The notes under the pieces were generated by a model, which saw only the letters and a program-made list of their open reading frames with translations, made no database searches and was not told the DNA's origin. The translations under genes and the position numbers were made by a program. A stretch of DNA of 64,000 nt from Candidatus Paralachnospira caecorum (GTDB lineage: Bacteria > Bacillota > Clostridia > Lachnospirales > Lachnospiraceae), in assembly GCA_904379015.1 (NCBI GenBank), contig CAJFHG010000005.1, positions 32,699 through 96,698 of the forward strand. Direction: 5' to 3'. Position 1 is the stretch's first letter, and each line of letters begins with the position of its first letter. This document shows positions 14,267-35,137 of the stretch, in pieces.

Positions 14267-14331
14267 CAGGACAGGCAGAGAAAAACAGAAAAGGAGGGGA
14301 ATGCCGGGAATCTCTGCCCCGGCCGAGCGAT

Positions 14332-17300
14332 ATGAGAACACACAGACGGATCAGATACAGACTGACAAGCCTGATCCTGGCCGCAGCTTTGCTGTGGGGC
14401 CAGGCACCTCAGGTACAGGCGGCCGGGGATACGGCTGCCGTACGCGATACAGAGGCGGTGCGCGAGACTGCCCGGCTGACTTCTGATACAGAGGCGGAAG
14501 AGGGGACGACACTGGTAATTCCGGACGGCACGACAGAAATCGGGGATTTCGCCTATGCCTATACAACTCAGTATCAGCATGTGATCATACCGGACAGTGT
14601 AAAAAAGATCGGAAAAAACGCGTTCCGGCAGAGCAGTATTGTCAGCGTAGAGATGGGAGACGGTGTAGAAGAAATTGGAGAGAGAGCCTTTTACGGCTGC
14701 AGCCGGCTGACCCGGGCAGAGCTTTCGGAATCCCTGGTTTCTGTTGATTACGCTGCTTTTCAGAGCTGTGAAGCTCTGGAGGAGGTCCGTCTTCCGGCCG
14801 GCCTGAGGACGCTGGGGAGCAGTGCCTTTGAGTATTGCTCATCCCTGAGACGGATCGAACTGCCGGGCGGGCTGAGTGATTTTGACGGCGCGTTCCGCAG
14901 CAGCGGACTGGAGGCGGTGGAGCTGGGAGAAGGAATCACGGAGATTCCTCAGTATGCCTTCTATAATTGTCTGTCTCTGAAGCAGGTGACATTTCCCGGT
15001 TCTCTTGTTTCTGTAGGGGATAACGCCTTCGGATATTCGGGGCTGGAGGAATTGGTCCTTCCGGATACGGTGGAGGTATTGGGAGACTATAGCTTTCAGT
15101 CCTGCAGTCAGCTTACGCGGGTTGTTTTTCCGGAGGGGCTTACGCAGATCGGACAGCAGGCTTTTTATCGATGCGGAAGCCTGACAGAGGTTCTGATCCC
15201 TGACTCGGTGACGAAGCTCGGAAGACAGGCCTTTGAGGAATGTACCGGGCTCACCTCTCTGGAGATCGGAGACGGTGTCGAGGTGGTCGATTATGATATT
15301 GTGAAGAAATGCAGCGCGCTGAAGGAGCTGACATTGGGAAAATCGGTGCGGACCTTCAATCGGAACCGTGAGCTGTTTGAGGACTGTACCGCGCTGGAAC
15401 GGATCTGGGTGGATGAGGAGAACCCGTATTACCATTCGGATGATCATGGAATGCTCTATGATACGCAGAACAGAATTCTGGTGCAGTGTCCTGCCGCTGT
15501 GGGGGACAGCCGGGTGACGGTTGAGGAAGGAACGGTCCGGATCCGGGATTATGCCTTCAAGTTCTGCTACGAGCTGGAGGAGGTCATCCTTCCCGATACG
15601 GTGACAGAGATCGGGGTTTATGCGTTTGAGGAAAATCACGCGCTGGCGGTGCCCGATTTCCCCGCCGGACTTACGAAGATCGGGAATTATGCCTTTAAAG
15701 GCTGCCGGTCCTTTACGGAGCTGTCTCTGCCGGAGGGACTGGAGTCGATCGGTGAAAGCGCCTTTACGGGCTGTACATCGCTGAACAGGGTGATCATCCC
15801 TGCGGGAACTGTCAGTGTGGGAAGGTATGCCTTTGAGGACTGCCCTGTGACCTATGCGCAGCTTCCCGGAAGCCTGACCGCGTTTGAATATCTCTTTGAA
15901 CACAATACGGATCTGACAGACGTGGTTCTGGAGGAGGGTCTGACATCCGTTGCCCGGAGCGCTTTCCGGGGATGCACGGATCTTGCCCGGGTGGAATTTC
16001 CCCAGAGTCTCACCTCAGTATATTATTACGCCTTTGCCGATTCCGGCCTGACGGAGGCAATTCTTCCCGACAGCGTGACGCGTCTCTGGCCGGGAGCCTT
16101 TGAAAACTGCGTTTCTCTGGAACGGGTGGAATTTCCTTCAGAGCTTCAGGATATCGCGGAGGCGGTATTCCTCGGCGGCGTCAGTCTGACAGAGGCGGAT
16201 CTGTCCGGCTGTTCTTCTCTCGGCAGGATCGCCAACCAGGCTTTTGAAAACTGTACGTCCCTTCAGGCGGTCATGCTACCTGAAAATCTGGATACGCTGG
16301 GGAACGGGGCTTTCCGGAACTGCACGTTGCTGAAGGAGCTGACCGTATACAGCGAGAAAGTTTCCCTGGGCCAGTACCGGAGCGCTTTTGAAGGCTGTAC
16401 TGCCCTGGAAACGATCCGCGGGATTTCCGGCTCTGCGGCAGAGGACTACGCGGCCGAAATGGGGATTGCCTTTGTTTCCATAGGAGAAGCCAGCGTGCCG
16501 GAGCTGACCGGCATGACGGTCAGCCTGAATCGTTGGAATGAGACCAGCAAGAATGTGGATGTCCGTGTCAGTGTTTCCGGGGAATCCGTGTATGAGGCGG
16601 CCGTTCTGGAGTATTCCCATGACGGAATCCGGTTTGAGGAGTATGAGCGGCAGGATGACAATGATGAACGGCAGCATATCTGGCGGATGATCATCGACGG
16701 GCCGGATTATGACAGACTGTATCTGCGGGTGGTCCTTTACAATGATACGGCGTCGGCCGTGTCGGAAACGGCAGAGCTGGAAATTGATACGGAACGTCCG
16801 CCTGTGCCGGGGAACTTTACGGCGTCGGCGGATGAATCCTATATCCATCTGGGATGGAGCTACAATGAAGTGCCTTCCGATTTCGGAGAATTCCGCGTTT
16901 ATCGTGGGCTCTCCCCCGATGGGCCCTTCGAGCAGATCGGCGCCCTGCGTTCGATCGGATTTTATGATACGGATATTGAGACGGGTGGTACTTATTATTA
17001 TTACATGACCGCTGTGGATCAGTGGGGGCATATATCAGAGCAGACACCGGTCATTTCGGAAACGTATCTGGATGAGGAAGCGCCCTATGTCTCTTCGTCC
17101 ACGCCCGGCGAGAACGAGACGCAGTATGAGAGCATGCGTCTGGGATTCGGCGCCGGCGACAACTGGAGACTTGCATCGGCGCGTCTTTCCTTCAGACGGC
17201 AGGGAACAGAATCGTATACGCTGCTTTCTGAGTATGAACTGTCCGGAAAATCGGACACCTTCTACTATAACTGGGATATCAGCGGTCTGGAAAGCGGATA

Positions 17301-20300
17301 TTACGAGGTTTTGGTGGAGCTGACAGACGGAAGCGGCCTGACGGGGCGCTATACCTATACCTTCGCGGTGGAACAGTACGAAGAAATGCAGACACCGCAG
17401 CCGGAAGCCGTCAGCGGATTCAAAGAGGTGTCCCTTACCTGGGATGCCTGTGTGAGCGACAGACTGCTGGCGGGGTACGCGGTTTACCGGCAGCCGGCGG
17501 ACGGATCGGGAAGCCTGGTGAAGGTGGCCGAGGTCCGGGAGCCGGAATATACGGATCGTGTGAATCCGGGAAGTTATGATTATGTGGTGGAAGTGCGCAA
17601 TATTTTCGGGGACCGGTTAAGAGGAGCTCTGATCACGGCGGACTCCCTGTCCAATGACAGCGAACCTCCGAAGGCGCTGGCGTCTCCCGGGGAGGCGAAG
17701 GTGTGGCCGGGCGCGGCAGTTTCCTTTGACGCGTCGGCATCCTCGGACAACGATGAGATCCTGTCCTGGCACTGGGACTTCGGAGACGGCAGCGAGGCGG
17801 AAGGCGTCGCGGCGGAGCATGTTTATGAGGAAAAGGGAAGCTTTGAGGCAGTGCTGACCGTGACGGATGTTTCCGGAAATGCTTCCGCGTTCGCGATTCC
17901 TGTGGAGGTGGCGGAACCCGACGCGGCTTCCGGCAAACGGGCCGTAGCCCTGACCGTGACGGACGACAGCACGGGAGAGGTCATAAGCGGAGCGCAGCTG
18001 ATCCTGGAGAAAGCAGACGGGGCGCCGGCTTCCGCCGCCTCGGTGACGGCGGTGACCGATGAAAACGGAAATGCTTCTGTGGTGCTGGACGGCGATCAGA
18101 CCTACCGTATGGTCGTGGTCAAGCAGAACAGCGAGTATCAGGCGGAGGAACGGGAGCTTTATGTGGAGCCGCCGACGGATGATCCGGAGCCCCAGAAGGA
18201 GGATGTTGCTTTAAGCCGCGTCCATTTTCTGGTGGGAGAGCTGACCGCGAAGGAGCTTTCGGCGGAAGAGATCGCGGATGCCGGCATCGATACGGAGGAT
18301 CCCATGAACCGGGAGGTCACAGAGTTTACGCTGGTGCTGGTCTATCAGAAAGAAGAACCTGTCACCCTGCCCATCACCTATTATGTGAACGGCGCGGGCG
18401 GCATCGTGGAGGGCGCCGGCTCCGGCTGGACAGCCACCGACGGCCCGGGCTCCGGATTTGCCGGGAGCGTTTCTTCCGGCGGAAAGAAAAGCGCCTATTA
18501 TGTGGCGGGAGTCGCGAAGGATGCTCACGATACGACTTATGTAATGGTGGTGAACGGCGGGATCAGCTGGCTCAAGCAGATGTTCGAGGTCTCGCTGGTG
18601 GTCGTCAATACTTCGGAGGAGGACTGGGTTGAGGGCGCCTCCGCGACTCTGAATCTGCCGGAGGGCATGTCCCTGGCCGGCATGACGGAGGAAGCGGGAG
18701 AGCAGACCATGTCCATTGCTCTCGACAGGCTCGGGCCGGGCGAGCAGAAAAACGCCACCTGGTATGTGCGCGGGGACGAGCCGGGCAGTTATGACCTGAG
18801 CGCCGACGTGACCGGGACTTATTATCCGGAACCGGCGGAGAATTTCCGGGTGCGCTTTGCCACAGCGCAGCCGGTGGAGGTCGTGGATACTTCAGACGCC
18901 CTGTCTCTCCATGTGGGGAATATTCCGAGACACGCGGCCAACGGACAGGCTTATCCGTTGACCTTTACTCTGACCAACAATTCGGACAGAACGCTGAACT
19001 ATGTCAACCTGTCCTTAAAATCGGACCATCTGGACAAAACCTTTGAGGTTACAACGCTGGAGCCCGGGCAGAGCGAGACCTTTGAATACAATCTTGTGAT
19101 CCTGGCCGAAGGCGAGGAGCTCGATACAGAGCTGAAGCTCAGGGACGTCATTTATGTGTGCGGCGGACGGATCCCGATCACCTTCAGCTACAGTCCGGAA
19201 GCTTATGACGTGCTTCAGCATGAGATGAGTCTTTATACCGATGAGGAGGAACCGGTCAAGGTAGAACGCTTCCGTTACAGCATGGGAAGTTATTCCTTTG
19301 AAACCAGGGATGAAACCAGCACAGGCTATGATCATCTGTATCTTCGTTCCCAGGTGACAAACCCCATCCCTGAGGGCGGGGTCGGCTCGAGGGCGGAAAA
19401 CGTATCTGTGAAGATTACGGCTCCGGAGGGATTCAGCTTCCGGGAATATGAGATCGTGACGGAATATGAATACACGATTGATGCCATTGAGATCGGGGCT
19501 TCCAGTCCGGTCCGTGAAATCGATCTTTATCCGATCTACCATGCGGAGGGAGATCTGCCGGAAGAAGCAGAATTTTCGTATCAGATCCGGGCCGACAGAA
19601 GACAGGAGCTGGCAGATACTTATGCGGTGCCTGTGGAGATCAATCCGGATATGGGCAGGATCCCTTACCGCGCCACGGCGGCGGTATCCTCCCGTGTCAC
19701 CTCAGAGGCTGTGTGGGGACAGGATGATCTGGGGTATTATCCCAATCAGTTCGCGGAGAGCTTCGCAGAGTCTTCCACTTCCTACCGCAGGGGCATCGCG
19801 GCGCTTTCTCTTTACCTGAGTTCTTCTGTGTACCGCTATGACGATATCAGAGAAGCGCTTTTGAATCTGGGATTTTTCGATATTCAGGGATACGCGTTCA
19901 ATCCGGCTGATACGGACGAGGTTCAGGAGACCCTGGATCAGGACAGCGTCGCGAATGTGGTCGCGTCGAAGAAACTCATCATAGACGGAGAGGTATGCGT
20001 CCTTGTCGCGGTCATCGTGAGAGGCACGGTAGGACAGGAATGGTACGGGAATTTCAATGTGGGAACCGGAAGCGAGCACGCAAGCTTCTATCAGTCCTGT
20101 CTGGATGTGGAGGAACGGCTTGCCGGATATATGAGCGAGGCCGGGATACCGAGGGAGAAAACAAAGCTTCTGGTTACCGGCCACAGCAGAGGCGCGGCGG
20201 CGGCGAATCTTCTGGCGGCAGAGCTTGACGGATCGCTCACATACGCGGATCAGGAAGATATTTATGTCTATACCTACGCGACGCCGAATGTGACCAGAAA

Positions 20301-22344
20301 GAGCGGCACAGATTCCTCCGCTTATGATAATATTTTCAATATCATCAATCCGAAGGATCTGGTCGCCTGTGTTCCCCTTCCTGAATGGGGATATGGAAAA
20401 TACGGGATCACGCTTTCCTTCCCGGAGGAAGGCACGTCGGAATATCATGAGAATATTTCGGGCGCGCGGCAGGTATTTGCCGCGATCACGGGCGTGACCC
20501 AGGCAACGGCCTATGGCTTGAGCATACCGGGAAATGTGGACGCCGTGCGCGGAATCCTTTCTGAGCTGGCGCCGACTGTGGAAGATTATGAAAACAGACA
20601 GCTGGTGAAGGTGGAAGTATCAGATCTGTTCAAAACCATACTGAGCTGGCAGCTGGCATCGGTATCCAACCCTGTGTTCGGGGGCATCCTGAGCGGCATG
20701 ACGCCGCTGTATAAGGCGTGTTATGAGAGGCTGGCAGGGATTGTGGACCAGATAGACGGAGCAACGGTCACGCCCCATGATGTCGGGAACGCGGTCGCCG
20801 CGGCGACGCTGAGCATTCCCGCCCAGATCCAGCGTCCGGTTTCCTTTTCCCATGCGGTGGAAACCTATATCAGCTGGCTGCATACAGTGGATCCGGAACC
20901 GGTCCGCAGCATGAAGAACGGCAGGCTGATCACTGCGAATTGTCCGGTGGATCTGGAAATCTATGACGCCGAAGGGAATCTGGCAGGGCGCGTGACAGAT
21001 GGAAGGCCGGATCTGACCATAGAGAACCGGGTATCGGCTGTCGTGACAGCGGATTCAAAGTCTGTATGGCTGCCCGGCGAAGATCCGTATTCGATTGTGT
21101 TCACCGGGACCGGCGAGGGCGTTATGACCTATACAGTGGCGGAATATGATGAAACAGGAACCCGCGTAAGGCAGATGGTCTTCAGGAATATTCCTCTGAC
21201 AGAGGGCTGCAGATATACGGAAACCCTGGGCGGAGCCGCGGGCGCCCCGGCGGAAGATTATGCGCTTCGCGCGCCGGAGGGAACGCTCTGGCTGCCCGAT
21301 GCCGATCTGAAGGGAGAAGCGCTGGAGGGGCTGGATATTCAGGTGCGGATCACAGGGCAGGGGGATGTTTCCGGTTCCGGATCCTGTGCGGAGGGGGACT
21401 ATGTGACTCTGACGGCACTGGCAGTGCCGGGGTATCGGTTCGAGGGCTGGTACATAGACGGACAACTGGTCAGTGAGGCACAGGAATATGCCTTCGTGGC
21501 GGCCGGAAATCTCCTTCTGGAGGCGCGGTTCACGTCGCCGCTGACCATTCCGGATCCAGACGAGGTGTACCATGAAGGCATGACGCTGGGAGATATCGCG
21601 CTGCCGGACGGCTGGGAATGGCTGCTGCCGGAGACAGAGCTGATTTCCGGGGAAAACGGGCATCTGGCAATCTATACGCCGTCTGTCGGGGAAGTGTCTG
21701 TCTGTGAGAGCCTGGCCGGATGGGACAGCGGGACGGGGACAGTAACGGCGCTGATTCCCGTGACTCTGACGGAACGTCTCCCCTTCCCCTTCAAAGATGT
21801 GGCGGAGAATGACTGGTATTATGATGCAGTGGACTATGTTTACCAGAGGAACATCATGACCGGGATGGGAACGGACCGGACGTTTTTCGCTCCGCTGGAT
21901 ATCCTCTGCCGGGCCCAGTTTGTCACAGTGCTCTGGCGGATGGAGGGGGAACAGGAAGCTGAGATGCCCAGCGTGTTCCCGGACGTGCGGGACAGCGACT
22001 GGTACGCGGACGCGGTCATATGGGCCAATGAGAACCGGATTGCCACGGGCTATTCCAACGGATATTTCGGCCCCGCGGACAATATCACCCGCGAGCAGAT
22101 GGCGGTGATGATGCAGCGCTACGCGAGATATCTGGGCTATGCCGCGGACGCGCAGACTGACATAAGCGGCTATGAGGATGCCGGAAAGGTCAGCGAGTTT
22201 GCGGAGGAGGCCATGCAGTGGGCAGTGGCCGAGGGGATCATAAGCGGCAAATACAACCAGACGCAGCTGGATCCCCAGGGAAACACAAGCCGGGCGGAAT
22301 GCGCGGTGATCATCATGAGATTTATGCAAACATACGGACTGTAA
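14332..22344 (+). CDS. Giant secreted multidomain protein: BspA-type LRR array, FN3-like, PKD, lipase class 3-like, InlB-type repeat and three SLH domains
   Basis: Start placed at MRTHRRIRYRLTSLILAAALLWGQAPQVQA (signal peptide). LRR_5 repeats; PKD WHWDFGDGSEAEGVAAEHVYEEKGSFEAVLTVTD; lipase elbow LLVTGHSRGAAAANLLAAEL; YRFEGWYIDGQLV repeat; SLH triplet. Confidence 0.9.
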   Translation: MRTHRRIRYRLTSLILAAALLWGQAPQVQAAGDTAAVRDTEAVRETARLTSDTEAEEGTTLVIPDGTTEIGDFAYAYTTQYQHVIIPDSVKKIGKNAFRQSSIVSVEMGDGVEEIGERAFYGCSRLTRAELSESLVSVDYAAFQSCEALEEVRLPAGLRTLGSSAFEYCSSLRRIELPGGLSDFDGAFRSSGLEAVELGEGITEIPQYAFYNCLSLKQVTFPGSLVSVGDNAFGYSGLEELVLPDTVEVLGDYSFQSCSQLTRVVFPEGLTQIGQQAFYRCGSLTEVLIPDSVTKLGRQAFEECTGLTSLEIGDGVEVVDYDIVKKCSALKELTLGKSVRTFNRNRELFEDCTALERIWVDEENPYYHSDDHGMLYDTQNRILVQCPAAVGDSRVTVEEGTVRIRDYAFKFCYELEEVILPDTVTEIGVYAFEENHALAVPDFPAGLTKIGNYAFKGCRSFTELSLPEGLESIGESAFTGCTSLNRVIIPAGTVSVGRYAFEDCPVTYAQLPGSLTAFEYLFEHNTDLTDVVLEEGLTSVARSAFRGCTDLARVEFPQSLTSVYYYAFADSGLTEAILPDSVTRLWPGAFENCVSLERVEFPSELQDIAEAVFLGGVSLTEADLSGCSSLGRIANQAFENCTSLQAVMLPENLDTLGNGAFRNCTLLKELTVYSEKVSLGQYRSAFEGCTALETIRGISGSAAEDYAAEMGIAFVSIGEASVPELTGMTVSLNRWNETSKNVDVRVSVSGESVYEAAVLEYSHDGIRFEEYERQDDNDERQHIWRMIIDGPDYDRLYLRVVLYNDTASAVSETAELEIDTERPPVPGNFTASADESYIHLGWSYNEVPSDFGEFRVYRGLSPDGPFEQIGALRSIGFYDTDIETGGTYYYYMTAVDQWGHISEQTPVISETYLDEEAPYVSSSTPGENETQYESMRLGFGAGDNWRLASARLSFRRQGTESYTLLSEYELSGKSDTFYYNWDISGLESGYYEVLVELTDGSGLTGRYTYTFAVEQYEEMQTPQPEAVSGFKEVSLTWDACVSDRLLAGYAVYRQPADGSGSLVKVAEVREPEYTDRVNPGSYDYVVEVRNIFGDRLRGALITADSLSNDSEPPKALASPGEAKVWPGAAVSFDASASSDNDEILSWHWDFGDGSEAEGVAAEHVYEEKGSFEAVLTVTDVSGNASAFAIPVEVAEPDAASGKRAVALTVTDDSTGEVISGAQLILEKADGAPASAASVTAVTDENGNASVVLDGDQTYRMVVVKQNSEYQAEERELYVEPPTDDPEPQKEDVALSRVHFLVGELTAKELSAEEIADAGIDTEDPMNREVTEFTLVLVYQKEEPVTLPITYYVNGAGGIVEGAGSGWTATDGPGSGFAGSVSSGGKKSAYYVAGVAKDAHDTTYVMVVNGGISWLKQMFEVSLVVVNTSEEDWVEGASATLNLPEGMSLAGMTEEAGEQTMSIALDRLGPGEQKNATWYVRGDEPGSYDLSADVTGTYYPEPAENFRVRFATAQPVEVVDTSDALSLHVGNIPRHAANGQAYPLTFTLTNNSDRTLNYVNLSLKSDHLDKTFEVTTLEPGQSETFEYNLVILAEGEELDTELKLRDVIYVCGGRIPITFSYSPEAYDVLQHEMSLYTDEEEPVKVERFRYSMGSYSFETRDETSTGYDHLYLRSQVTNPIPEGGVGSRAENVSVKITAPEGFSFREYEIVTEYEYTIDAIEIGASSPVREIDLYPIYHAEGDLPEEAEFSYQIRADRRQELADTYAVPVEINPDMGRIPYRATAAVSSRVTSEAVWGQDDLGYYPNQFAESFAESSTSYRRGIAALSLYLSSSVYRYDDIREALLNLGFFDIQGYAFNPADTDEVQETLDQDSVANVVASKKLIIDGEVCVLVAVIVRGTVGQEWYGNFNVGTGSEHASFYQSCLDVEERLAGYMSEAGIPREKTKLLVTGHSRGAAAANLLAAELDGSLTYADQEDIYVYTYATPNVTRKSGTDSSAYDNIFNIINPKDLVACVPLPEWGYGKYGITLSFPEEGTSEYHENISGARQVFAAITGVTQATAYGLSIPGNVDAVRGILSELAPTVEDYENRQLVKVEVSDLFKTILSWQLASVSNPVFGGILSGMTPLYKACYERLAGIVDQIDGATVTPHDVGNAVAAATLSIPAQIQRPVSFSHAVETYISWLHTVDPEPVRSMKNGRLITANCPVDLEIYDAEGNLAGRVTDGRPDLTIENRVSAVVTADSKSVWLPGEDPYSIVFTGTGEGVMTYTVAEYDETGTRVRQMVFRNIPLTEGCRYTETLGGAAGAPAEDYALRAPEGTLWLPDADLKGEALEGLDIQVRITGQGDVSGSGSCAEGDYVTLTALAVPGYRFEGWYIDGQLVSEAQEYAFVAAGNLLLEARFTSPLTIPDPDEVYHEGMTLGDIALPDGWEWLLPETELISGENGHLAIYTPSVGEVSVCESLAGWDSGTGTVTALIPVTLTERLPFPFKDVAENDWYYDAVDYVYQRNIMTGMGTDRTFFAPLDILCRAQFVTVLWRMEGEQEAEMPSVFPDVRDSDWYADAVIWANENRIATGYSNGYFGPADNITREQMAVMMQRYARYLGYAADAQTDISGYEDAGKVSEFAEEAMQWAVAEGIISGKYNQTQLDPQGNTSRAECAVIIMRFMQTYGL
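14512..16470 (+). repeat. BspA-type (LRR_5) leucine-rich repeat array inside the giant CDS
   Basis: Repeated units such as IGENAFxxCxSLxxVxLPxxLxxIGxxAFxxC across roughly 650 residues. Confidence 0.85.
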
Positions 22345-22563: not shown

Positions 22564-23679
22564 ATGAAGAGATATGACTATGTGATTGTAGGCGGCGGCC
22601 TCTTCGGGGGCGTGATGGCATGGTATGCCAGGAAGAACGGAAAAACCTGTCTTGTGGTCGAAAAGCGGGATCAGCTGGGCGGAAATCTTTACTGTGAGGA
22701 GATAGAGGGCATTCCGGTCCACCGGTACGGCGCCCATATTTTTCATACTTCCAATAAGACTGTGTGGGATTTCGTGAACAGTCTGGCGGAGTTCAACCGC
22801 TACACCAACTGTCCGGTGGCCAACTACAAAGGGCAGATGTACAACATGCCCTTTAATATGAACACCTTCAGCAGGCTGTGGGGCGTCTGCACGCCTGAGG
22901 AGGCCAGACAGAAGATCGAGGAGCAGCGGGCGGGCATTGCCGGCGAGCCGAGAAATCTGGAGGAGCAGGCCATTTCCCTGGTGGGACGGGATATTTATGA
23001 GAAGCTGATCAAAGGATATACGGAGAAGCAGTGGGGGAGAGACTGTAAGGATCTGCCCAGCTTCATTATCAGGCGGCTGCCGGTCCGCTATACTTATGAC
23101 AACAATTATTTCAACGACCGGTATCAGGGGATCCCTGTGGGCGGCTACAACGGCCTGATCGGGAAGCTGTTTGAGGGCTGCGATGTGCGCTGCGGGACAG
23201 ATTATCTGGCGGATAAGGAAACGTATGATGCCATGGGAGAACGGATCATTTATACGGGAACCATCGACGCCTATTTCGGCTACTGCTTCGGGAAGCTGGA
23301 GTACAGGAGCCTGAGGTTTGAGGATGATCTGTACGACACGGATAATTATCAGGGCGTAGCAGTGGTGAACCATACAGCGAGAGAGGTGCCTTACACCAGG
23401 ACCATCGAGCACAAGCACTTCGACTGCACCAGGGATTACAAGGAGACACCCAGGACTGTGGTGACCAGAGAATATCCGGTGACCTGGGAGGAAGGCATGG
23501 AGCCTTATTATCCGGTCAACGATGAAAAGAACCAGGCTCTGTACCGGCAGTACGCGGCGCTGGCTGAAAAAGAAGAGCGCGTTCTGTTCGGAGGGCGGCT
23601 GGCCGAATATAAATATTATGATATGGATAAGGTGATCGAATCGGCCATGAAAGCGGCCGGACAGGAATTTGGGAGGTAA
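22564..23679 (+). CDS. glf: UDP-galactopyranose mutase
   Basis: 371 aa; YDYVIVGGGLFGGVMAWYARKNGKTCLVVEKRDQLGGNLY, YGAHIFHTSNKTVWDFVN, FNMNTFSRLWGV, YTEKQWGRD. Confidence 0.96.
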   Translation: MKRYDYVIVGGGLFGGVMAWYARKNGKTCLVVEKRDQLGGNLYCEEIEGIPVHRYGAHIFHTSNKTVWDFVNSLAEFNRYTNCPVANYKGQMYNMPFNMNTFSRLWGVCTPEEARQKIEEQRAGIAGEPRNLEEQAISLVGRDIYEKLIKGYTEKQWGRDCKDLPSFIIRRLPVRYTYDNNYFNDRYQGIPVGGYNGLIGKLFEGCDVRCGTDYLADKETYDAMGERIIYTGTIDAYFGYCFGKLEYRSLRFEDDLYDTDNYQGVAVVNHTAREVPYTRTIEHKHFDCTRDYKETPRTVVTREYPVTWEEGMEPYYPVNDEKNQALYRQYAALAEKEERVLFGGRLAEYKYYDMDKVIESAMKAAGQEFGR

Positions 23680-23681
23680 TT

Positions 23682-25496
23682 ATGCAGGCAGTCATACTGG
23701 CGGCGGGAATGGGAAAGCGGCTGAAGGAGCTTACAAAGAACGCGACAAAGTGCATGGTGCGGGTCAACGGCGAGACACTGATCGAACGGGCGCTGAAGAG
23801 CCTGGACAAACTGGGGCTTTCCCGGATCGTCATTGTGATCGGCTATGAAGGGCAGAAGCTGAAGGACTTTATCGGGACCCTGCCTGTGAAAACGCCGGTC
23901 GTCTATATCGACAATCAGATTTACTACAAGACCAACAACATCTATTCCCTTTATATGGCGAAGGATTATCTGGTGCGGGAGGATACCCTGCTCCTGGAAT
24001 CCGACCTGATCTTTGAAGAGGCGGTCCTGAAAAAGCTGGTGGAGAATCCCTATCCCAGCCTGGCCCTGGTGGCAAAGTATGAAAGCTGGATGGACGGAAC
24101 CGTGGCGGTGCTGGATGAAGAGGACAATATCCTGGACTTCATCGGCAAAAAGAATTTCCGGTTCGCGGACCGGGACAAATATTATAAGACGGTCAATATT
24201 TATAAATTCAGCAGGGAATTTTCCGCGACCCATTATGTGCCGTTCCTGGAAGCCTACTGCAAGGCGCTGGGGAACAATGAATATTATGAGCAGGTGCTCA
24301 AGGTGATCTCGATCCTGGACAGGCCGCTGATCAAGGCTCTGCGGCTGGAAGGCGAGGTCTGGTATGAGATCGACGACGAGCAGGATCTGGATATTGCCGA
24401 GTCCCTGTTTGCGGAGGGAGAGGAAAAGCTCCGGAAGATCTCGTCCCGGTACGGCGGCTACTGGCGATATCCCCATCTGAAGGATTTCTGCTATCTGGTC
24501 AATCCTTTCTATCCGGGAGAAAAGCTGATCGAGGAGCTCAAGGCCAGCTTTACGGAGCTGCTGGTCAATTATCCCTCAGGCATGGCGGTCAACAGCCTGG
24601 TGGCGGCCAAATATTTCGGACTGAAGAGAGAGCAGGTCTGCGTGGGAAACGGGGCGGCTGAGCTGATCAAGCTGCTGACAGAGATGATTCCGGGCAGGAT
24701 GGGCTGTGTTTATCCGACCTTTGAGGAATATCCCAACCGGAAAAAGGAGGAGCTGGAGCCCTTCATGGCCCAGGCACCCGATTTTTCCTATACGGCGGAC
24801 GGCCTGATGGAGTATTTTGAGAGCAGAGATATTTCCATGCTGGTGCTGGTCAATCCGGACAATCCTTCCGGAAACTTTATTTCCAGGGACGATGTGCTGC
24901 GGATGGCGGAATGGGCAGGGAAGAAGGGCATTTGGCTTGTGGCGGACGAGTCCTTTGTGGATTTTGCCGACGGGGATATGGAAGACAATACCCTCCTTCA
25001 CAGGGAGATTCTGGACGCGCACCCGTCACTTCTCGTGGTAAAGAGTATTTCCAAATCCTACGGCGTGCCGGGGCTCAGGCTGGGTATCATTGCCGGAAGC
25101 GATACAGATTTTATCGGGAAAATGAAAAAGCAGGCCGCTATCTGGAACATCAATTCCTTTGGTGAATATTACATGCAGATCGCAGAAAAATATAAAGGCG
25201 ATTACCGGACGGCCATGGAGCGCTTCAAAGAGGTGCGCAGAGCGTATGTGCAGATGCTTTCCGGCGTGTCCCATCTCCGGGTCATTCCCAGCCAGGCCAA
25301 TTATGTGCTGTGCGAGCTTCTGGACGGAAAAGAGAGCCGTGACCTGACAGTACGCCTTCTGGACCGGTATCAGCTGCTGATCAAAGACCTGTCTTCCAAG
25401 AAGGGGCTGGAAGGCGGTCAGTATATCCGTCTGGCGGTGAAGCGCCCGGAGGAGAATGAAATGATGGTGCAGGCTCTGAAGAAGGAGCTTTCGTAA
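23682..25496 (+). CDS. Bifunctional protein: N-terminal LicC-like nucleotidyltransferase fused to C-terminal fold-type-I PLP enzyme (HisC/CobD-like)
   Basis: 604 aa; MQAVILAAGMGKRLKELTKNATKCMVRVNGETLIERAL, IYYKTNNIYSLYMAKDYL, EIDDEQDLDIAE; then LVNPDNPSGNFIS, VADESFVDFAD, VVKSISKSYGVPGLRLGI with the presumptive PLP lysine. Confidence 0.88.
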   Translation: MQAVILAAGMGKRLKELTKNATKCMVRVNGETLIERALKSLDKLGLSRIVIVIGYEGQKLKDFIGTLPVKTPVVYIDNQIYYKTNNIYSLYMAKDYLVREDTLLLESDLIFEEAVLKKLVENPYPSLALVAKYESWMDGTVAVLDEEDNILDFIGKKNFRFADRDKYYKTVNIYKFSREFSATHYVPFLEAYCKALGNNEYYEQVLKVISILDRPLIKALRLEGEVWYEIDDEQDLDIAESLFAEGEEKLRKISSRYGGYWRYPHLKDFCYLVNPFYPGEKLIEELKASFTELLVNYPSGMAVNSLVAAKYFGLKREQVCVGNGAAELIKLLTEMIPGRMGCVYPTFEEYPNRKKEELEPFMAQAPDFSYTADGLMEYFESRDISMLVLVNPDNPSGNFISRDDVLRMAEWAGKKGIWLVADESFVDFADGDMEDNTLLHREILDAHPSLLVVKSISKSYGVPGLRLGIIAGSDTDFIGKMKKQAAIWNINSFGEYYMQIAEKYKGDYRTAMERFKEVRRAYVQMLSGVSHLRVIPSQANYVLCELLDGKESRDLTVRLLDRYQLLIKDLSSKKGLEGGQYIRLAVKRPEENEMMVQALKKELS

Positions 25497-25508
25497 GGAG
25501 CGGAAACG

Positions 25509-26366
25509 ATGTTTAAGGAATACGACGAGGAGACCCTGAAAAAGCTGCAGAGAACCGAACTGGAGATTCTGAAGGATTTCCTCTGGATCTGTGAACAATA
25601 TGATCTGACTTATTTTTCTTTCGCGGGCACTGCCATCGGCGCGCTGCGCCATAAGGGCTTTATTCCATGGGACGATGACATTGATGTCTGCCTTCCCAGA
25701 AAGGATTATGAAGCCTTTATCCGGGCGGCAAAGAAAGAATTTCCTGATAAATATACGGTGATGAACGCGGAGGAAAATGAAAATTATCCGCTGACTACCA
25801 CCAGATGGATGCTGAAGGGGACCAGCTTCCGGGAGGAGGCGCTTAAGGATATTGACTGCGAGCTTGGCGTCTTTCTGGATATCTATCCCTTTGACAATGT
25901 CTCTGATGATGAGAAGGAGTATAAAAAACAGGCATGGGACGCCTGGTTCTGGAGCAAGATCCTGATCCTGCGCTGTATCAGGGAGCCTGTGATCCTGGGA
26001 ACGGGATTCCGGGTGTCAGCCGTGAAGGCCGCGTGCAGGGCGGGGCACTGGTTCCTGAAGACATTTGGATTTTCAAAAAAGAAAATTTACCGGAAATGCA
26101 AAGCGGCCATGACCCGCTGCAACGACCGGGAGACGAGACGCCTGAGCTATCTGTGCGATACGGACCGGTTCTGGAATACCATTGACAAACAGGATCTGTA
26201 TCCGCTCAGGAAGGAGCCCTTTGAGGATGTATATTTGAATTTTCCGGCCAATATTGAAAAGATGCTTTCCCAGATGCATCCGGATTTTATGACGCTTCCG
26301 CCGGTGGAAAAACGGAAGAACCATTATCCGTACCAGCTGGATCTGGGGCAATATGGGAGAGATTAG
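25509..26366 (+). CDS. LicD family phosphotransferase
   Basis: 285 aa; FAGTAIGALRHKGFIPWDDDIDVCLPRKDYEAFI and LGVFLDIYPFDNV are diagnostic. Confidence 0.93.
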   Translation: MFKEYDEETLKKLQRTELEILKDFLWICEQYDLTYFSFAGTAIGALRHKGFIPWDDDIDVCLPRKDYEAFIRAAKKEFPDKYTVMNAEENENYPLTTTRWMLKGTSFREEALKDIDCELGVFLDIYPFDNVSDDEKEYKKQAWDAWFWSKILILRCIREPVILGTGFRVSAVKAACRAGHWFLKTFGFSKKKIYRKCKAAMTRCNDRETRRLSYLCDTDRFWNTIDKQDLYPLRKEPFEDVYLNFPANIEKMLSQMHPDFMTLPPVEKRKNHYPYQLDLGQYGRD

Positions 26367-26372
26367 GATCAG

Positions 26373-27641
26373 ATGAAAAAATGGAAAGCTCTGATCCTCG
26401 GAAACGGGGAAAATCAGGGAAAGAAAAATGTATTTTGGAACATGGTGGGAAGCCTTCTGTTCGCTCTGGCGAGTATTGTGCTCTTCGCGGCGGCGACCCG
26501 GGCGACGGGAGAGTATTACGGCGGGATTTTTTCCATTGCCTTTACCACCGGCCAGCAGCTTCTGACCATCGGCTATTATGAGGTGCGCCCCTTTCAGGTG
26601 ACGGATGTGAGCGGCCAGTATTCCTTCCCGGAATATCTGTCGGCCAGGGCGGTCACCAGCGCGGCCATGGCCGTCGCCGGTATTGTCTATGTGCTGGTCA
26701 CGGGGCCTGATTTTGTAAAAGGGACCGTGATCCTTCTCATGTGCCTTTACAAAATGGTGGACGGCATCGCCGATGTGTTTGAGGGAGAGTTCCACAGAAG
26801 AGGACGTCTGGATATTGCGGGAAAGTCCATGGCTTTCCGGACGGCATTTTCCGGCGGCGTTTTTATTTTGACGGTGATCCTGTCGCGGGATATTGTCATT
26901 GCCAGCGCGGCGGCGGTGGCGGCGGCGGTGTTCGCCTTCGCGGTGTTCGACCTGGTCCTGATCGGGGAGTTTGAGCCGCTTCAGTTTTCCAGGACCTGGA
27001 ACCGGGTGCTCAGCCTTCTGAAGGACTGCTTTTTTCTTTTCGTTGGGAGCTTTCTGTATCTTTATATCTGCAACGCCTCCAAATATGCCATCGACGCGCA
27101 TATGACGGCGGAGGCGGTCACTTATTACACGGATATTTATCTGCCTACTTCGACGATCAATCTGCTTTCCGGCTTTATTTTCAAACCGCTTCTGACGGTT
27201 ATGGGGATCAGCTATGAAACGGGAGAGTGGAAGCGGTTCCGGTCGATCGTGGGCAGGCTGCTCATAGGGATCGTGGGACTGACGGCGGTCTGCTGTCTGG
27301 GAGCCTTCCTCCTTGGCGTGCCGGTCCTGTCCTTTATTTTCGGCCAGGATCTCGCACCCTACAGAATGGCTCTGGTGATCCTGATCCTCGGAGGCGGATT
27401 CAACGCGGCGGCCATGCTGCTGTACTACGCGCTGACGACCATGCGCAGGCAGCGCCAGATCCTGTTCTGCTATGGAGCGGCGTTCCTTGCGGCCCTGGCT
27501 GTGCCGTCCATTCTGGTGAAACAGTTCGGAATCAATGGCGGCGCGCTGGGATATACGCTGGTCATGGGACTTCTGGTGGTCCTGTTCTTCATAAGCGCTT
27601 GGAGGCAGTACAGGAAAGCGGCTGCCGGTTCGGAGGTGTAA
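26373..27641 (+). CDS. Polysaccharide flippase (Wzx-like, MATE/MOP superfamily)
   Basis: 422 aa, about 12 TM segments; position within the glycan operon. Confidence 0.75.
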   Translation: MKKWKALILGNGENQGKKNVFWNMVGSLLFALASIVLFAAATRATGEYYGGIFSIAFTTGQQLLTIGYYEVRPFQVTDVSGQYSFPEYLSARAVTSAAMAVAGIVYVLVTGPDFVKGTVILLMCLYKMVDGIADVFEGEFHRRGRLDIAGKSMAFRTAFSGGVFILTVILSRDIVIASAAAVAAAVFAFAVFDLVLIGEFEPLQFSRTWNRVLSLLKDCFFLFVGSFLYLYICNASKYAIDAHMTAEAVTYYTDIYLPTSTINLLSGFIFKPLLTVMGISYETGEWKRFRSIVGRLLIGIVGLTAVCCLGAFLLGVPVLSFIFGQDLAPYRMALVILILGGGFNAAAMLLYYALTTMRRQRQILFCYGAAFLAALAVPSILVKQFGINGGALGYTLVMGLLVVLFFISAWRQYRKAAAGSEV

Positions 27642-27642
27642 A

Positions 27643-28647
27643 ATGACAGAAGAAAACGGAGAAAACACAGACAGGATCAATATACTGGTGCCGGTTTACC
27701 GGCCGGATGAGAAACTTGCCGGACTCATTTATATGATGAACAGGCAGAGCCTGAAGCCGGACAAGATGGTCTTTATGGTGACGGTGGACGCGGATTCCAC
27801 AGAGGAGGACCAGGCCCGGGCGCTTTCCGGCACGGTCCGCGGAAGTGATATTCCCATTGAGTGCCGGTTTGTCAGAAAGGCTGAATTTGACCACGGAGGC
27901 ACAAGAAACCGGGGAATGGAATACTGTGACGGACAGATCGTCATCTGCATGACTCAGGACGCGGTGCCGGAGGATGATCACATGGTAGAGGAACTGACGC
28001 TTCCCTTCCGGGGAGAGTTCTGCGGTGCGTCGGGGGGCGTGGCGGAGGGACGGGAGATCATTGTTTCCTATGCCCGTCAGATGCCCGCGAAGGACTGCAG
28101 GCCGGTGGAGCGGTTTACAAGGAATTTCAATTATCCTCCGGTGAGCAGGATCAAGACGGAGGAGGATCTGAAAACGCTGGGCATCAAGACCTTTTTCGCT
28201 TCCAATGTATGCGCGGCTTATAAAAAGGATCTGTTTCTCGCCCGCGGCGGTTTTCCGGAACAAACCATTTTCAATGAAGATATGATCTTCGCGGGAAGGG
28301 CGGTCAGGGCCGGCTACGCGGTGGCCTACGCGGCCGGCGCCAGAGTCATCCATTCCCACAACCTGCCTTTCCGGGAGCAGTTCAAACGGAATTTTGACCT
28401 GGCTGTGTCTCAGGCGGATTTTCCCGATGTGTTCGAGGGCGTTCCCTCCGAGGGCGAGGGGATCCGGCTGGTGAAAAGCACCATGAGATATCTGGCTTCT
28501 CAGGGAAAGATTCATCTGATTCCCGGCCTGATCTGGGGATCGGCCTGCAAATACGCCGGCTATTTTCTGGGAAAGCGGTACCGGAAGCTTCCGAAAAAGC
28601 TGGTGCGGGCATTCAGCCTGAATAAATATTATTGGAGGAACAGGTGA
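27643..28647 (+). CDS. Glycosyltransferase family 2 (rhamnosyltransferase-like)
   Basis: 334 aa; INILVPVYRPDEKLAGLIYMMNRQSLKPDKMVFMVT, DHGGTRNRGMEYCDGQIVICMTQDAVPEDD. Confidence 0.85.
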   Translation: MTEENGENTDRINILVPVYRPDEKLAGLIYMMNRQSLKPDKMVFMVTVDADSTEEDQARALSGTVRGSDIPIECRFVRKAEFDHGGTRNRGMEYCDGQIVICMTQDAVPEDDHMVEELTLPFRGEFCGASGGVAEGREIIVSYARQMPAKDCRPVERFTRNFNYPPVSRIKTEEDLKTLGIKTFFASNVCAAYKKDLFLARGGFPEQTIFNEDMIFAGRAVRAGYAVAYAAGARVIHSHNLPFREQFKRNFDLAVSQADFPDVFEGVPSEGEGIRLVKSTMRYLASQGKIHLIPGLIWGSACKYAGYFLGKRYRKLPKKLVRAFSLNKYYWRNR

Positions 28648-29372: not shown

Positions 29373-29728
29373 CAATGGTGCTTCGGGTGGTTCTGATCGT
29401 GATGTCGGTCCTGGTTCTGGTGGTGATGTTCCGGAAGATACGTCAGGCGAAGGCTAGGATCGAGGATTCTATGTTCTGGGTGTTTTTTGCCCTGCTGCTG
29501 GTGCTGTTCAGTGTGTTTCCGGGGGCGGCCGACTGGCTGTCCGGTCTGGTGGGCACCATGTCCACCGCCAATTTTATCTTTCTCCTGATGATCTTCCTTC
29601 TGCTGGTGAAGAGCTTTTCCATGTCTCTGCGGATTTCCCAGCTGGAAACAAGACTGAAGGATCTGGTGCAGAGAATTGCTCTGGACAACAATGACCGAGA
29701 GGAAGAAAAGGAGGAGAAGGACTCATGA
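29369..29728 (+). CDS. DUF2304 domain-containing small membrane protein
   Basis: 119 aa, three hydrophobic segments plus coiled C-terminus (ISQLETRLKDLVQRIAL); ATGA overlaps on both sides. Confidence 0.8.
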   Translation: MTMVLRVVLIVMSVLVLVVMFRKIRQAKARIEDSMFWVFFALLLVLFSVFPGAADWLSGLVGTMSTANFIFLLMIFLLLVKSFSMSLRISQLETRLKDLVQRIALDNNDREEEKEEKDS

Positions 29729-30561
29729 ATCCGCTGGTGAGTGTATGTATTCCCGCTTACAACAGCGCGGTTTACATCGAAAAAACCATGGAGTCGGTGC
29801 TGGCTCAGAAGTATGAGCACCTGGAGCTGGTGGTGGTGGACGACTGCTCCAGGGATGAGACGGTGAAGATCGTGGAGCGGATCCGGGAGAGAGACAGCCG
29901 GGTGCGCCTGGTGCGGAATGAAACGAATCTGGGGATGACTGGAAACTGGAATAAATGTCTTGAAGAGGCCAGGGGCGAGTATATCAAGCTGATCTGTGCT
30001 GACGACATTCTGTATCCGGACAGCATCGAAAAGGAGCTGGCGGCGCTTCTGGAGCATCCGGAAGTGGCCATTGCCATGAGCGATACGGCGCTTATCGATG
30101 AAAATGGAGTGCGGACAGGATGCTTCCGGCGCTATCCCAGATCAGGCGTTCTGGACGGAAAAAAGGTGGCCAAACGGGCCCTGATCTTCAAAAGCTTTTT
30201 CGGAGCGCCCTGCAATACGCTCTTTCCCCGGAAAAGCTATGAGCGGGTGGGCGGCTTTGACCCGGAATTTCCTTATATCCTGGACTTCGATATGTGGCTC
30301 CGGATGGCCTGTCTCGGAAAGATCTATGTGATCCATGAGGAGCTGAACGGCTTCCGGGTCCGCAATGATTCCAACACGGGCAATCTGATCAATGACGACA
30401 GAAAGACCTACAATGAGGAGCACAGAAAGCTTCTGAAAAAACACAATGCTTTGGGGGAGGTGCATCTGAACCGGTTTGAGCTCTGGGTGAGTATGATGAT
30501 ACGGCACTGGAGGAATGAACTGATTCAGATTTATCTGAAGATCAACGCGAAGAAAAAGTGA
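29725..30561 (+). CDS. Glycosyltransferase family 2
   Basis: 278 aa; VSVCIPAYNSAVYIEKTMESVLAQKYEHLELVVVDDCSRDETVKIVE. Confidence 0.92.
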   Translation: MNPLVSVCIPAYNSAVYIEKTMESVLAQKYEHLELVVVDDCSRDETVKIVERIRERDSRVRLVRNETNLGMTGNWNKCLEEARGEYIKLICADDILYPDSIEKELAALLEHPEVAIAMSDTALIDENGVRTGCFRRYPRSGVLDGKKVAKRALIFKSFFGAPCNTLFPRKSYERVGGFDPEFPYILDFDMWLRMACLGKIYVIHEELNGFRVRNDSNTGNLINDDRKTYNEEHRKLLKKHNALGEVHLNRFELWVSMMIRHWRNELIQIYLKINAKKK

Positions 30562-32650: not shown

Positions 32651-35137
32651 GTGATTAAGGAAAAACATGCATTGGACCAGGTACTCTGCGGGATCAGAGA
32701 CCACCGCGTTATGATGAGCTTCAGAGGCTGGTGTGTGATGGACGGGACAGATGAGTATGAGCTGTCTGTCTTTGTGGATGAGAAGCGGATCCCGCTGAAA
32801 TATGAGGCCAGGTCTCTGAGAAAGGACGTGGGGGAGGCATTTGCCTCCGAGGGTGCCATTGAGGAGACAAGAGGGATCGGTTTTATGGCATTCGCGGAAC
32901 TGCCTGAGGACGGGCTGACGGGGACGCTCTCGCTGACGGCCGAGCAGAATGGGAGAAAGCTGGTTCTTGGCAGCTACAGTCCGGAAGAGGTCCGGAAGCT
33001 GGCTGAGACAAATGGGATGGCGTACGCCATTGACAGAATGGATATGGATGAAAACCGGATGATCATTTCCGGATGGGTCATTTCCCTGACAGGAAGCGAA
33101 CTTTCGTACACGCTGTTCGGCAGTGACGGAACGGCGATTCCCATGAAGCTGAAAAAGACGGCACGTCCGGATATCAACCGTTCTTTTCTGGGAGAGCCTT
33201 ACCGGTGCATGGCCGGATTCAGCATTGAATTTGAGGGGAAAAAGAATGGTCTGTATACCCTGGAAGCGGGAGACGGAGAGCATCAGATCCGGATTCCCGT
33301 ATCGGGAAAGGAAATCGCAAAAGCGGCCCAGAAGAAGCAGAGAAAGTATCAGAGCGCGGGAGAGATCATCCGGAGCACCGGATGGAAAGATGTGGGGTCT
33401 GATTTAAAGACCCTGTTCCGGAAGGGGCCTTCCGCTCTGAAGGAGGTCTGGGCAGAGCGGTACACCAATGAATTCCATCAGTATGAACGGTGGTTCCGCG
33501 CTCAGGCGCCGGGGGAGGAGACGCTCCGGGCCCAGCGGGAAGAACGATTTCCGCGTATGCCCAAAATCAGCATCATTGTACCGGCCTACCATACGCCGGA
33601 ACTGTTCCTGAAGCAGATGGTGGACTCTGTGCGCAGTCAGTCCTATGAGAACTGGGAGCTGTGCATCGCCGACGGAGGAGCGGATGATCCGGCGGTCGGC
33701 CGGTTCCTGGAACCGCTTCTGAAGGAGGATCCCAGGATCCGTTACCGGAAGCTGGAAGAAAACAAAGGCATTTCCGGCAACACCAATGAGGCGGCGGCCA
33801 TGGCGGAGGGCGATTTCCTGGCGCTTCTGGATCACGATGATGTGCTGACGCCCGACGCCCTGTATGAGGTGGTCCGGGCCGCCAATCAGAATCCGGACGC
33901 GGACGTGTTCTATACGGATGAGGACAAGACCTCCAGGGATCTGAGCACCTTTTATGATCCCCATTTCAAGTCGGATTTCAACCGGGATCTGCTGCGGTCC
34001 AACAATTATATCTGTCATTTCTTTGTCGCTTCCATGGAAGTGGTAAAGAAGGCGGGCTTTTTCGATCCGGAGTATGACGGATCCCAGGATTACGATTTTA
34101 TCCTCCGGTGCACGGAGGCGGCAAAGCAGGTGGTGCACATCCCGAAGATCCTCTATCACTGGCGGGTGCACAACGCTTCCACCGCGGCTGATTCGGAGAA
34201 TAAGATGTACTGCTTTGAGGCCGGGAGAAAGGCGGTGGCCGCGCATCTCGGCCGGTGCGGACTGGAGGCGGAGGTGGCGATGTTCCCGGAGCATCTGGGA
34301 TATTACCAGGTTCATTACAGACTGACCGGGCAGCCCTTTGTTTCGATCATCATTCCCAATAAGGATGAGAAGGAGAGCCTGGAGACCTGCATCCGTTCGA
34401 TCCGTGACAAGACAGAGTATGAAAATTATGAAATCATCATTGTGGAGAACAACAGCACCACAGAGGAGATTTTTGAATATTACAGGGAGCTTTCCCGGGA
34501 CGAGAAGATCCGGGTGCTGTACTGGAAGGAAGGCTTCAATTATTCCGCTCTCAATAATTTCGGTGTGCGGGAGAGCAGAGGGGACTATCTTCTGTTCCTC
34601 AACAACGACACAGAGGTGCTTTCCGGCGACTGGCTGACGGTGATGACGGCCGACTGCCAGAGGGAAAATATCGGAATGGTGGGCGTGAAGCTGTGCTATC
34701 CCGACATGACCCTCCAGCACTGCGGCGTCATGCTGGGGCTGGGCGGAGTGGCAGGCCATATTTTTACCAGCTATCCGGGCGAATATATGGGCTGTTTCGG
34801 AAGAGCGCAGCTGCAGCAGGATGTGAGCGCGGTGACCGCGGCCTGCATGATGGTGCGCCGCAGCGTCTATGAAGAAGTCGGGGGATTCGAGGAAGCCCTG
34901 GCGGTGGCCTTCAACGACGTGGACTTTTGTCTGAAGGTGCGGGAAAAAGGATATGACATTCTGTATGAGCCGCTGGTCTGCCTGAAGCACTATGAGTCCA
35001 AAAGCCGCGGAAGGGAAGATACAGCTGAAAAGCAGCTCCGGTTCCAGAGCGAAGTGGATTATATGCAGGAAAAATGGAAAACCGTTCTGGAGAAGGGTGA
35101 TCCGTACTACAGCAGAAATATGCTGATGGAGGGCTGA
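32651..35137 (+). CDS. Glycosyltransferase with two N-terminal beta-rich modules and two GT2 domains (GTG start)
   Basis: 828 aa; GT2 motifs at ISIIVPAYHTPELFLKQMVDSVRSQSYENWELCIADGG and VSIIIPNKDEKESLETCIRSIRDKTEYENYEIIIVENNST. Confidence 0.9.
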   Translation: MIKEKHALDQVLCGIRDHRVMMSFRGWCVMDGTDEYELSVFVDEKRIPLKYEARSLRKDVGEAFASEGAIEETRGIGFMAFAELPEDGLTGTLSLTAEQNGRKLVLGSYSPEEVRKLAETNGMAYAIDRMDMDENRMIISGWVISLTGSELSYTLFGSDGTAIPMKLKKTARPDINRSFLGEPYRCMAGFSIEFEGKKNGLYTLEAGDGEHQIRIPVSGKEIAKAAQKKQRKYQSAGEIIRSTGWKDVGSDLKTLFRKGPSALKEVWAERYTNEFHQYERWFRAQAPGEETLRAQREERFPRMPKISIIVPAYHTPELFLKQMVDSVRSQSYENWELCIADGGADDPAVGRFLEPLLKEDPRIRYRKLEENKGISGNTNEAAAMAEGDFLALLDHDDVLTPDALYEVVRAANQNPDADVFYTDEDKTSRDLSTFYDPHFKSDFNRDLLRSNNYICHFFVASMEVVKKAGFFDPEYDGSQDYDFILRCTEAAKQVVHIPKILYHWRVHNASTAADSENKMYCFEAGRKAVAAHLGRCGLEAEVAMFPEHLGYYQVHYRLTGQPFVSIIIPNKDEKESLETCIRSIRDKTEYENYEIIIVENNSTTEEIFEYYRELSRDEKIRVLYWKEGFNYSALNNFGVRESRGDYLLFLNNDTEVLSGDWLTVMTADCQRENIGMVGVKLCYPDMTLQHCGVMLGLGGVAGHIFTSYPGEYMGCFGRAQLQQDVSAVTAACMMVRRSVYEEVGGFEEALAVAFNDVDFCLKVREKGYDILYEPLVCLKHYESKSRGREDTAEKQLRFQSEVDYMQEKWKTVLEKGDPYYSRNMLMEG

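Follow-up and report, generated by a model that had tools for sequence, protein, structure and literature searches.

The 64,000-nucleotide stretch of Candidatus Paralachnospira caecorum DNA analysed here (the window; contig CAJFHG010000005.1, positions 32,699 to 96,698 of the forward strand) carries an open reading frame (ORF) in which a nucleotidyltransferase is fused to a pyridoxal phosphate (PLP) enzyme and which is followed by licD. This fusion is probably a phosphoserine decarboxylase and phosphoethanolamine cytidylyltransferase that feeds LicD. In the proposed pathway the C-terminal PLP domain would form phosphoethanolamine by decarboxylating O-phospho-L-serine, which arises as an intermediate in the synthesis of serine, the N-terminal domain would convert phosphoethanolamine and cytidine triphosphate to cytidine diphosphate (CDP)-ethanolamine, and LicD would transfer phosphoethanolamine onto a sugar of a rhamnose/galactofuranose-type polysaccharide. 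The outcome would be a zwitterionic decoration obtained without choline or ethanolamine uptake, kinase, or phosphatidylserine decarboxylation. What can be read directly from the DNA is the fusion itself, the families to which its domains belong, its catalytic residues, the order of the genes, the families of the partners, and the failure to find competing routes; we infer the substrate, the order of the reactions, their products, and the donor and acceptor of LicD. The parts of the fusion are as follows.

23682..25496, plus strand: predicted bifunctional cytidylyltransferase / SMUL_1544-type PLP enzyme, 604 aa
23682..24416, plus strand: N-terminal nucleotidyltransferase domain (residues 1-245), with the LAAGMGKRL signature and matches to 6pd1 PntC and 1jyk LicC
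23997..23999, plus strand: Glu106 codon, invariant, aligned to PntC Glu104 and LicC Asp105
24417..25493, plus strand: C-terminal PLP domain of fold type I (residues 246-604), carrying the motifs GGYWR and YPSG and matching 6oux and 1lc5, assigned also by the tree
25053..25055, plus strand: Lys458 codon, the PLP-binding lysine (CobD Lys216), from alignment and sequence

The original prediction of a nucleotidyltransferase-PLP fusion with licD 12 bp downstream is borne out by the ORF coordinates, by the Pfam and NCBIfam domains, and by PF04991. The reading frame is uninterrupted from 23682 to 25496 and starts with an ATG preceded by a GGGAGGT-type ribosome-binding site; licD also has a good ribosome-binding site, and the spacing is 2 bp between glf and the fusion ORF and 12 bp between the fusion ORF and licD. 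The AlphaFold2 model of the 604-aa protein is confident and has two domains (mean pLDDT 91, pTM 0.86). When this model was compared with solved structures by Foldseek, the fusion of PntC with a 2-aminoethylphosphonate (AEP) transaminase (PntC-AEPT) and SMUL_1544 ranked first, the former being the top full-length match (6pd2/6pd1) and the latter reaching a TM of 0.78-0.85 on target, while CobD came next and HisC after it. Since fused homologues were found in some 28 of 250 Lachnospiraceae genomes, the family to which the window belongs, and in 80 GTDB loci, a sequencing or assembly accident is excluded.

Residues ~250-604 match PF00155, and the C-terminal half is thus of the class I/II PLP fold and not the class V domain of AEP transaminases; the sequence alignment with 6pd1 is confined to the nucleotidyltransferase half (residues 2-243). 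The NCBIfam models for CobD (TIGR01140) and HisC (TIGR01141) give 170.9 and 134.1 bits, under their curated cut-offs of 290.55 and 276.55, respectively. Among solved structures the closest in sequence is 6oux (4e-42), entitled "Structure of SMUL_1544, a decarboxylase from Sulfurospirillum multivorans", and CobD 1lc5 matches at 1.5e-25. In a maximum-likelihood tree with 17 CobD-type and 12 HisC sequences as the comparison set, a branch supported at 100/99 separates all fusion PLP domains and SMUL_1544 from this set, and a placement of SMUL_1544 with CobD can be rejected (p-AU 0.00015). The same split, with support 100/100, was obtained in an enlarged tree to which distant fusions and rhizobial standalone enzymes were added. 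Residues C270, Y271, L272, S299, S424, S455, and K573 are common to the fusion and SMUL_1544, and CobD and HisC seldom or never have them, while the CobD motifs HGG and SAN are replaced in the fusion by YGG and CYL. The PLP catalytic set (Lys458, Asn394, Asp422, Tyr297, Arg466, and Arg583) is kept in 29-30 of 30 family rows. Involvement of SMUL_1544 in governing norcobamide synthesis is stated in the title of Keller et al. 2016, as cited in PMC6461909.

From the "HisC/CobD-like" description of this half in the original prediction the fold-type-I PLP domain stands, and the identity with either HisC or CobD itself does not. HisC was rejected by its score below the cut-off, by the tree, and by a separate HisC on another contig of the genome; CobD was rejected by its score, by the position of the domain outside the CobD group, by the missing motifs, and by a separate CobD in the genome. 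The domain is very likely a SMUL_1544-type member and is predicted to be a phosphoserine decarboxylase. A PLP domain acting only as a transaminase, named at the outset as an objection to the pathway, disagrees with the grouping with a decarboxylase apart from HisC and CobD and with the retained catalytic set.

In the N-terminal half residues 1-243 match PF12804/PF00483, and the nearest solved structures are Tde-PntC 6pd1 (4e-17; profile 1.2e-22) and LicC 1jyk (8e-14; profile 7.5e-22). Glu106 of the fusion, invariant in both family alignments, is aligned with PntC Glu104, where LicC has Asp105; because of this identity, and because phosphoethanolamine is only one bridging oxygen apart from AEP, the predicted pocket fits a small primary amine and not choline. 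In PntC both Glu104 and Glu196 touch the primary amine of AEP, their LicC counterparts being Asp105 and Asp192 (PMC6697681); in the fusion, sequence alone places the counterpart of Glu104 only.

The scan of GTDB contigs retained the best 80 of at least 571 candidate loci, one of which (L087) is cut off at the contig end. According to record names, in which labels of metagenome-assembled genomes (MAGs) are possibly wrong, the retained loci include Bacillota, Bacteroidota, Akkermansia, a treponeme, Actinomycetota, and one archaeal MAG, and among plasmid records remoter fusions were found in Fusobacterium, Gloeothece, Rahnella, Erwinia, Priestia, and Pseudonocardia. The nucleotidyltransferase signature, E106, D108, WYEI, the GG.WR motif, PSG, DESF, K-S-I-S, and R583 are invariant in the family alignment. 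Family members are automatically annotated as class I/II aminotransferases, and no description of the fusion enzyme was found in the open-licence literature on the fusion, LicD with CDP-ethanolamine, DUF1015, or N-carboxyethyl-ethanolamine phosphate in O-antigens. One member (L019:1501-3300) has lost PLP residues (K458 to D, Y297 to Q, and N394 to K), and its nucleotidyltransferase half seems intact. Listeria phage records (OR848233, OR846747, and others) contain a protein ~26-28% identical to the PLP half only.

The content of the window genome, which is 95.7% complete, agrees with internal synthesis of the head group. Since SerC (above cut-off) and SerA are encoded, phosphoserine is predicted to be made in the cell; the SerC gene is adjoined on the same strand by the SerA gene and then by a DUF1015 gene. 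A bona fide CobD next to CbiB and a separate HisC on another contig make the fusion a third paralogue. The adjacent licD is the only LicD match in this genome, and choline kinase (PF01633) gave no match, the LicB transporter not having been searched for; these results agree with the proposed independence from a choline route. Phosphatidylserine decarboxylase (PF02666) was not found in the genome. The same applies to a phosphonate mutase partner, which had been named in advance as evidence against the pathway: phosphoenolpyruvate (PEP) mutase (PF13714) has no match above cut-off in the genome. Among 25 carriers of the fusion within the same family, 16 are without CbiB, 19 without phosphatidylserine decarboxylase, and 21 without a PEP-mutase-family protein above cut-off, and PEP mutase is not enriched in carriers (4/25) as compared with the family background (15/120).

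The neighbourhood of the fusion was analysed in 81 loci, using stop-to-stop ORFs and an iterated LicD profile. LicD is located within 10 kb of the fusion in 37 of them, the TagF-like CDP-glycerol transferase family within 5 kb in 14, and in Herbinix and a Desulfotomaculaceae MAG (L071, L085) the gene after the fusion is a CDP-alcohol phosphatidyltransferase (CDP-OH_P_transf); thus transferases of three families using CDP-activated alcohols are encoded around the fusion. In a Coriobacteriaceae MAG (L101) licD, the fusion, an octopine dehydrogenase gene, and serC follow each other on one strand with gaps from -6 to about 20 bp, and in Planomicrobium and Inconstantimicrobium a DUF1015 gene lies directly 3' of the fusion (L042:12138-13190 and L045:2138-3187). 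Though these loci are few, the serC operon and the DUF1015 neighbours point to phosphoserine. The DUF1015 gene of the window genome (L164:23-1282, contig C15) stands after serC-serA; its position there and after the fusion in two other genera suggests a role of DUF1015 in phosphoserine metabolism.

An S-adenosylmethionine (SAM) methyltransferase is encoded within 5 kb of the fusion in five of the 81 loci; the adjacent enzyme, considered as a candidate phosphoethanolamine N-methyltransferase, gave only weak and general methyltransferase matches in the PDB. On a Gloeothece plasmid (L174:8977-12439) the fusion, a SAM methyltransferase, and LicD are encoded in a row, where internal synthesis of N-methylated head groups is possible. 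In another locus (L095:15236-17110) a 625-aa protein in which a nucleotidyltransferase is joined to a choline-kinase-like domain is encoded near the phosphoserine-type fusion. Two loci (L089:19778-21796 and L113:18571-20634) encode a PEP mutase protein ~8 kb from the fusion; the domains were annotated for L089 only, with a sugar-nucleotidyltransferase-like N-terminus, a cytidylyltransferase-like middle, and a PEP mutase C-terminus.

Several observations weigh against the phosphoserine pathway. All family members have Lys568 at a position at which SMUL_1544, CobD, and HisC carry Arg (CobD Arg323), and therefore the anion site is expected to be somewhat different. The branch of SMUL_1544 is long (1.3 changes per column), and this enzyme is, to our knowledge, the sole biochemically characterised member of the clade; Keller et al. 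2016 reportedly found it active on L-serine phosphate. LicD is near the fusion in only 37 of the 81 loci, the remainder being truncated or having other transferases. The confidence is kept from being higher mainly by three rhizobial plasmid stretches, of Rhizobium sp. 007, Mesorhizobium loti 582, and Bradyrhizobium sp. 187 (L168, L169, and L175; the last enzyme was left out of the tree), in which a cytidylyltransferase and a standalone SMUL_1544-type enzyme are separate genes next to PEP mutase (aepX). A further aminotransferase is encoded in two of the three clusters and a CDP-alcohol phosphatidyltransferase also in two of three, while phosphonopyruvate decarboxylase is not annotated in any of them, the PLSDB gene table being incomplete. 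The simplest reading of these clusters would be a route in which PEP mutase acts first, transamination then yields phosphonoalanine, the clade member decarboxylates this compound, and the product is activated to the cytidine monophosphate (CMP) derivative. Such a route speaks for decarboxylation as the reaction type of the clade, and some lineages or distant relatives may use a phosphonate analogue as substrate.

The same clusters, with aepX and cytidylyltransferase and no annotated phosphonopyruvate decarboxylase, lend some weight to the explanation that the fusion itself converts phosphonoalanine to AEP and then to CMP-AEP in a phosphonate pathway without that decarboxylase, as do the structure closest to the nucleotidyltransferase, which is PntC, and the two carrier loci with PEP mutase ~8 kb away. 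This is nevertheless very unlikely, considering the lack of PEP mutase above cut-off in an almost complete genome and its ordinary frequency in carriers, on which grounds a pure phosphonate reading was rejected for the window; besides, the PEP mutase protein of L089 possesses its own nucleotidyltransferase domains. A transaminase similar to HisC or AEP transaminase, making or using a phosphorylated aldehyde as in Tde-PntC, is slightly less probable again: it would agree with the automatic class I/II aminotransferase annotation and with the precedent of the nucleotidyltransferase-transaminase fusion 6pd2/6pd1, the top full-length structural match, but the genome has its own HisC elsewhere, the tree excludes HisC, the sequence match to 6pd1 is found only in the nucleotidyltransferase half, and the other aminotransferase encoded in two of the three rhizobial clusters would make the standalone relative redundant as a transaminase.

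Decarboxylation of O-phospho-L-threonine instead of phosphoserine, resulting in CDP-(R)-1-amino-2-propanol and in transfer of aminopropanol phosphate by LicD, is unlikely, though it comes nearest among the alternatives. CobD is the nearest well-known relative after SMUL_1544, and phosphothreonine may exist in the cell, since the genome has a CobD and a CbiB of its own, with which the nucleotide loop of B12 is made; however, the clade is shared with SMUL_1544 and not with CobD, YGG and CYL stand in place of HGG and SAN, most of the carriers (16/25) have no CbiB, no CbiB homologue was found within 10 kb of any of the 81 fusions, and serC belongs to the L101 operon. Least probable is a PLP domain that is inert or acts on another small substrate next to a cytidylyltransferase using imported phosphocholine or phosphoethanolamine. 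The member that has lost the lysine and kept the nucleotidyltransferase half (L019) would be in line with it, but the lysine and the other PLP residues are kept in 29/30 rows including the window, and choline/ethanolamine kinase was not found in the genome. According to these data the earlier idea of a self-contained pathway, which had left the choice between phosphoethanolamine and aminopropanol phosphate undecided, is supported by sequence placement, genome content, and neighbours, with ethanolamine as the favoured, predicted head group.

Two opine-type reductases were observed next to the fusion. An octopine-dehydrogenase-like protein, matching solved octopine dehydrogenases at 1e-30, is encoded within 5 kb in 25 of the 81 loci (L100:11764-12813 and 24 further loci) and an OCD/mu-crystallin-family reductase in 15 (L066:8730-9728 and 14 further loci). 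Direct adjacency (<150 bp) was counted in the 72 loci with enough flank and was found for the former in 23 and for the latter in 14, together 37/72 and never both; this mutual exclusion has a Fisher one-sided p of 0.002, not corrected for kinship of the loci. Because imines formed from amino compounds and keto acids are reduced by enzymes of either family, the two may N-alkylate the same amine. It is tentatively proposed that in an undescribed and widespread pathway the reductase would N-alkylate ethanolamine phosphate or its CDP derivative with a keto acid before transfer, so that bacterial surfaces would carry N-(carboxyalkyl)ethanolamine phosphate. N-(1-carboxyethyl)ethanolamine phosphate is reportedly present in a Proteus O-antigen (O14), and no confirming paper was found in the open-licence literature. 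The window cluster has neither an octopine-dehydrogenase-like nor an OCD-family gene within 5 kb of the fusion and would represent the unalkylated version.

Besides the fusion, the following genes of the cluster were identified in the window.

22564..23679, plus strand: UDP-galactopyranose mutase (glf), TIGR00031 415.5 bits, cut-off 303.75
25509..26366, plus strand: LicD family phosphotransferase, 285 aa, WDDDID motif, PF04991 131.8 bits (5.3e-38), cut-off 22.6
26373..27641, plus strand: membrane protein 6 bp after licD, probably polysaccharide flippase-like by hydrophobicity and context, with no Pfam or NCBIfam match
27643..28647, plus strand: family 2 glycosyltransferase, PF00535
28632..29372, plus strand: family 2 glycosyltransferase, PF00535 1.3e-29
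29725..30561, plus strand: family 2 glycosyltransferase, PF00535 2.4e-34
32651-35137 and 35140-36117, plus strand: two family 2 glycosyltransferase ORFs, PF00535
36194..38993, plus strand: dTDP-4-dehydrorhamnose epimerase, then ABC-2 permease and ATPase (polysaccharide export), PF00908, PF01061, PF00005
39932..44321, plus strand: two rhamnan synthesis RgpF-type glycosyltransferases, PF05045 2.4e-183 and 1.1e-133

Given glf, the rhamnose epimerase, the ABC-2 exporter, the glycosyltransferases, and the RgpF enzymes, the product of the cluster is predicted to be a rhamnose/galactofuranose-type surface polysaccharide. Just upstream of glf (14224-22344) a 2706-aa secreted-looking protein is encoded, which by reading of its translation has a leucine-rich-repeat-like N-terminus, PKD/fibronectin-like parts, and an SLH-like C-terminus.

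When bacteria display phosphocholine or phosphoethanolamine on their surface, host pentraxins and antibodies recognise these groups, and the usual view is that such decoration needs scavenged choline or ethanolamine or phospholipid donors. If the proposed pathway is true, one enzyme with phosphoserine as its starting material would add another way of making CDP-ethanolamine. It would account for the presence of LicD where a genome has no choline kinase, and a family which is present in hundreds of gut and environmental bacterial genomes and is annotated only as aminotransferase would gain a function.

Among known systems, SMUL_1544 (6oux) resembles the fusion in its PLP clade and in the CYL/YPS/DES/VKS residues; it differs in being unfused in the solved chain (393 aa) and in serving cobamide synthesis, whereas the fusion has K568 for Arg and a surface-polysaccharide context. 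CobD threonine-phosphate decarboxylase shares the fold and probably the chemistry, PLP-dependent decarboxylation of a phospho-amino acid, while the fusion is under the TIGR01140 cut-off, outside the CobD group, and without CobD motifs, the real CobD being encoded elsewhere in the genome. The LicC/LicD systems of Streptococcus and Haemophilus likewise activate an alcohol with CDP before LicD transfers it to a glycan; in the fusion system there is no LicA-type choline kinase, the head group would be made internally, and Glu replaces Asp105 of the choline pocket. In Mycoplasma fermentans the LicD family member mf1 transfers phosphoethanolamine from CDP-ethanolamine in vitro, its acceptor being glucosyl diacylglycerol (PMC11982090) and that of the window LicD presumably a polysaccharide. 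The closest described fusion is PntC-AEPT: Tde-PntC (6pd1), a CMP-AEP synthase joined to AEP transaminase, has the same domain order, the nearest nucleotidyltransferase structure, and the same active-site Glu, but its PLP half is a class V transaminase and it depends on PEP mutase, whereas the fusion of the window combines a CobD/SMUL-type class I/II PLP half with a genome in which no PEP mutase was found above cut-off.

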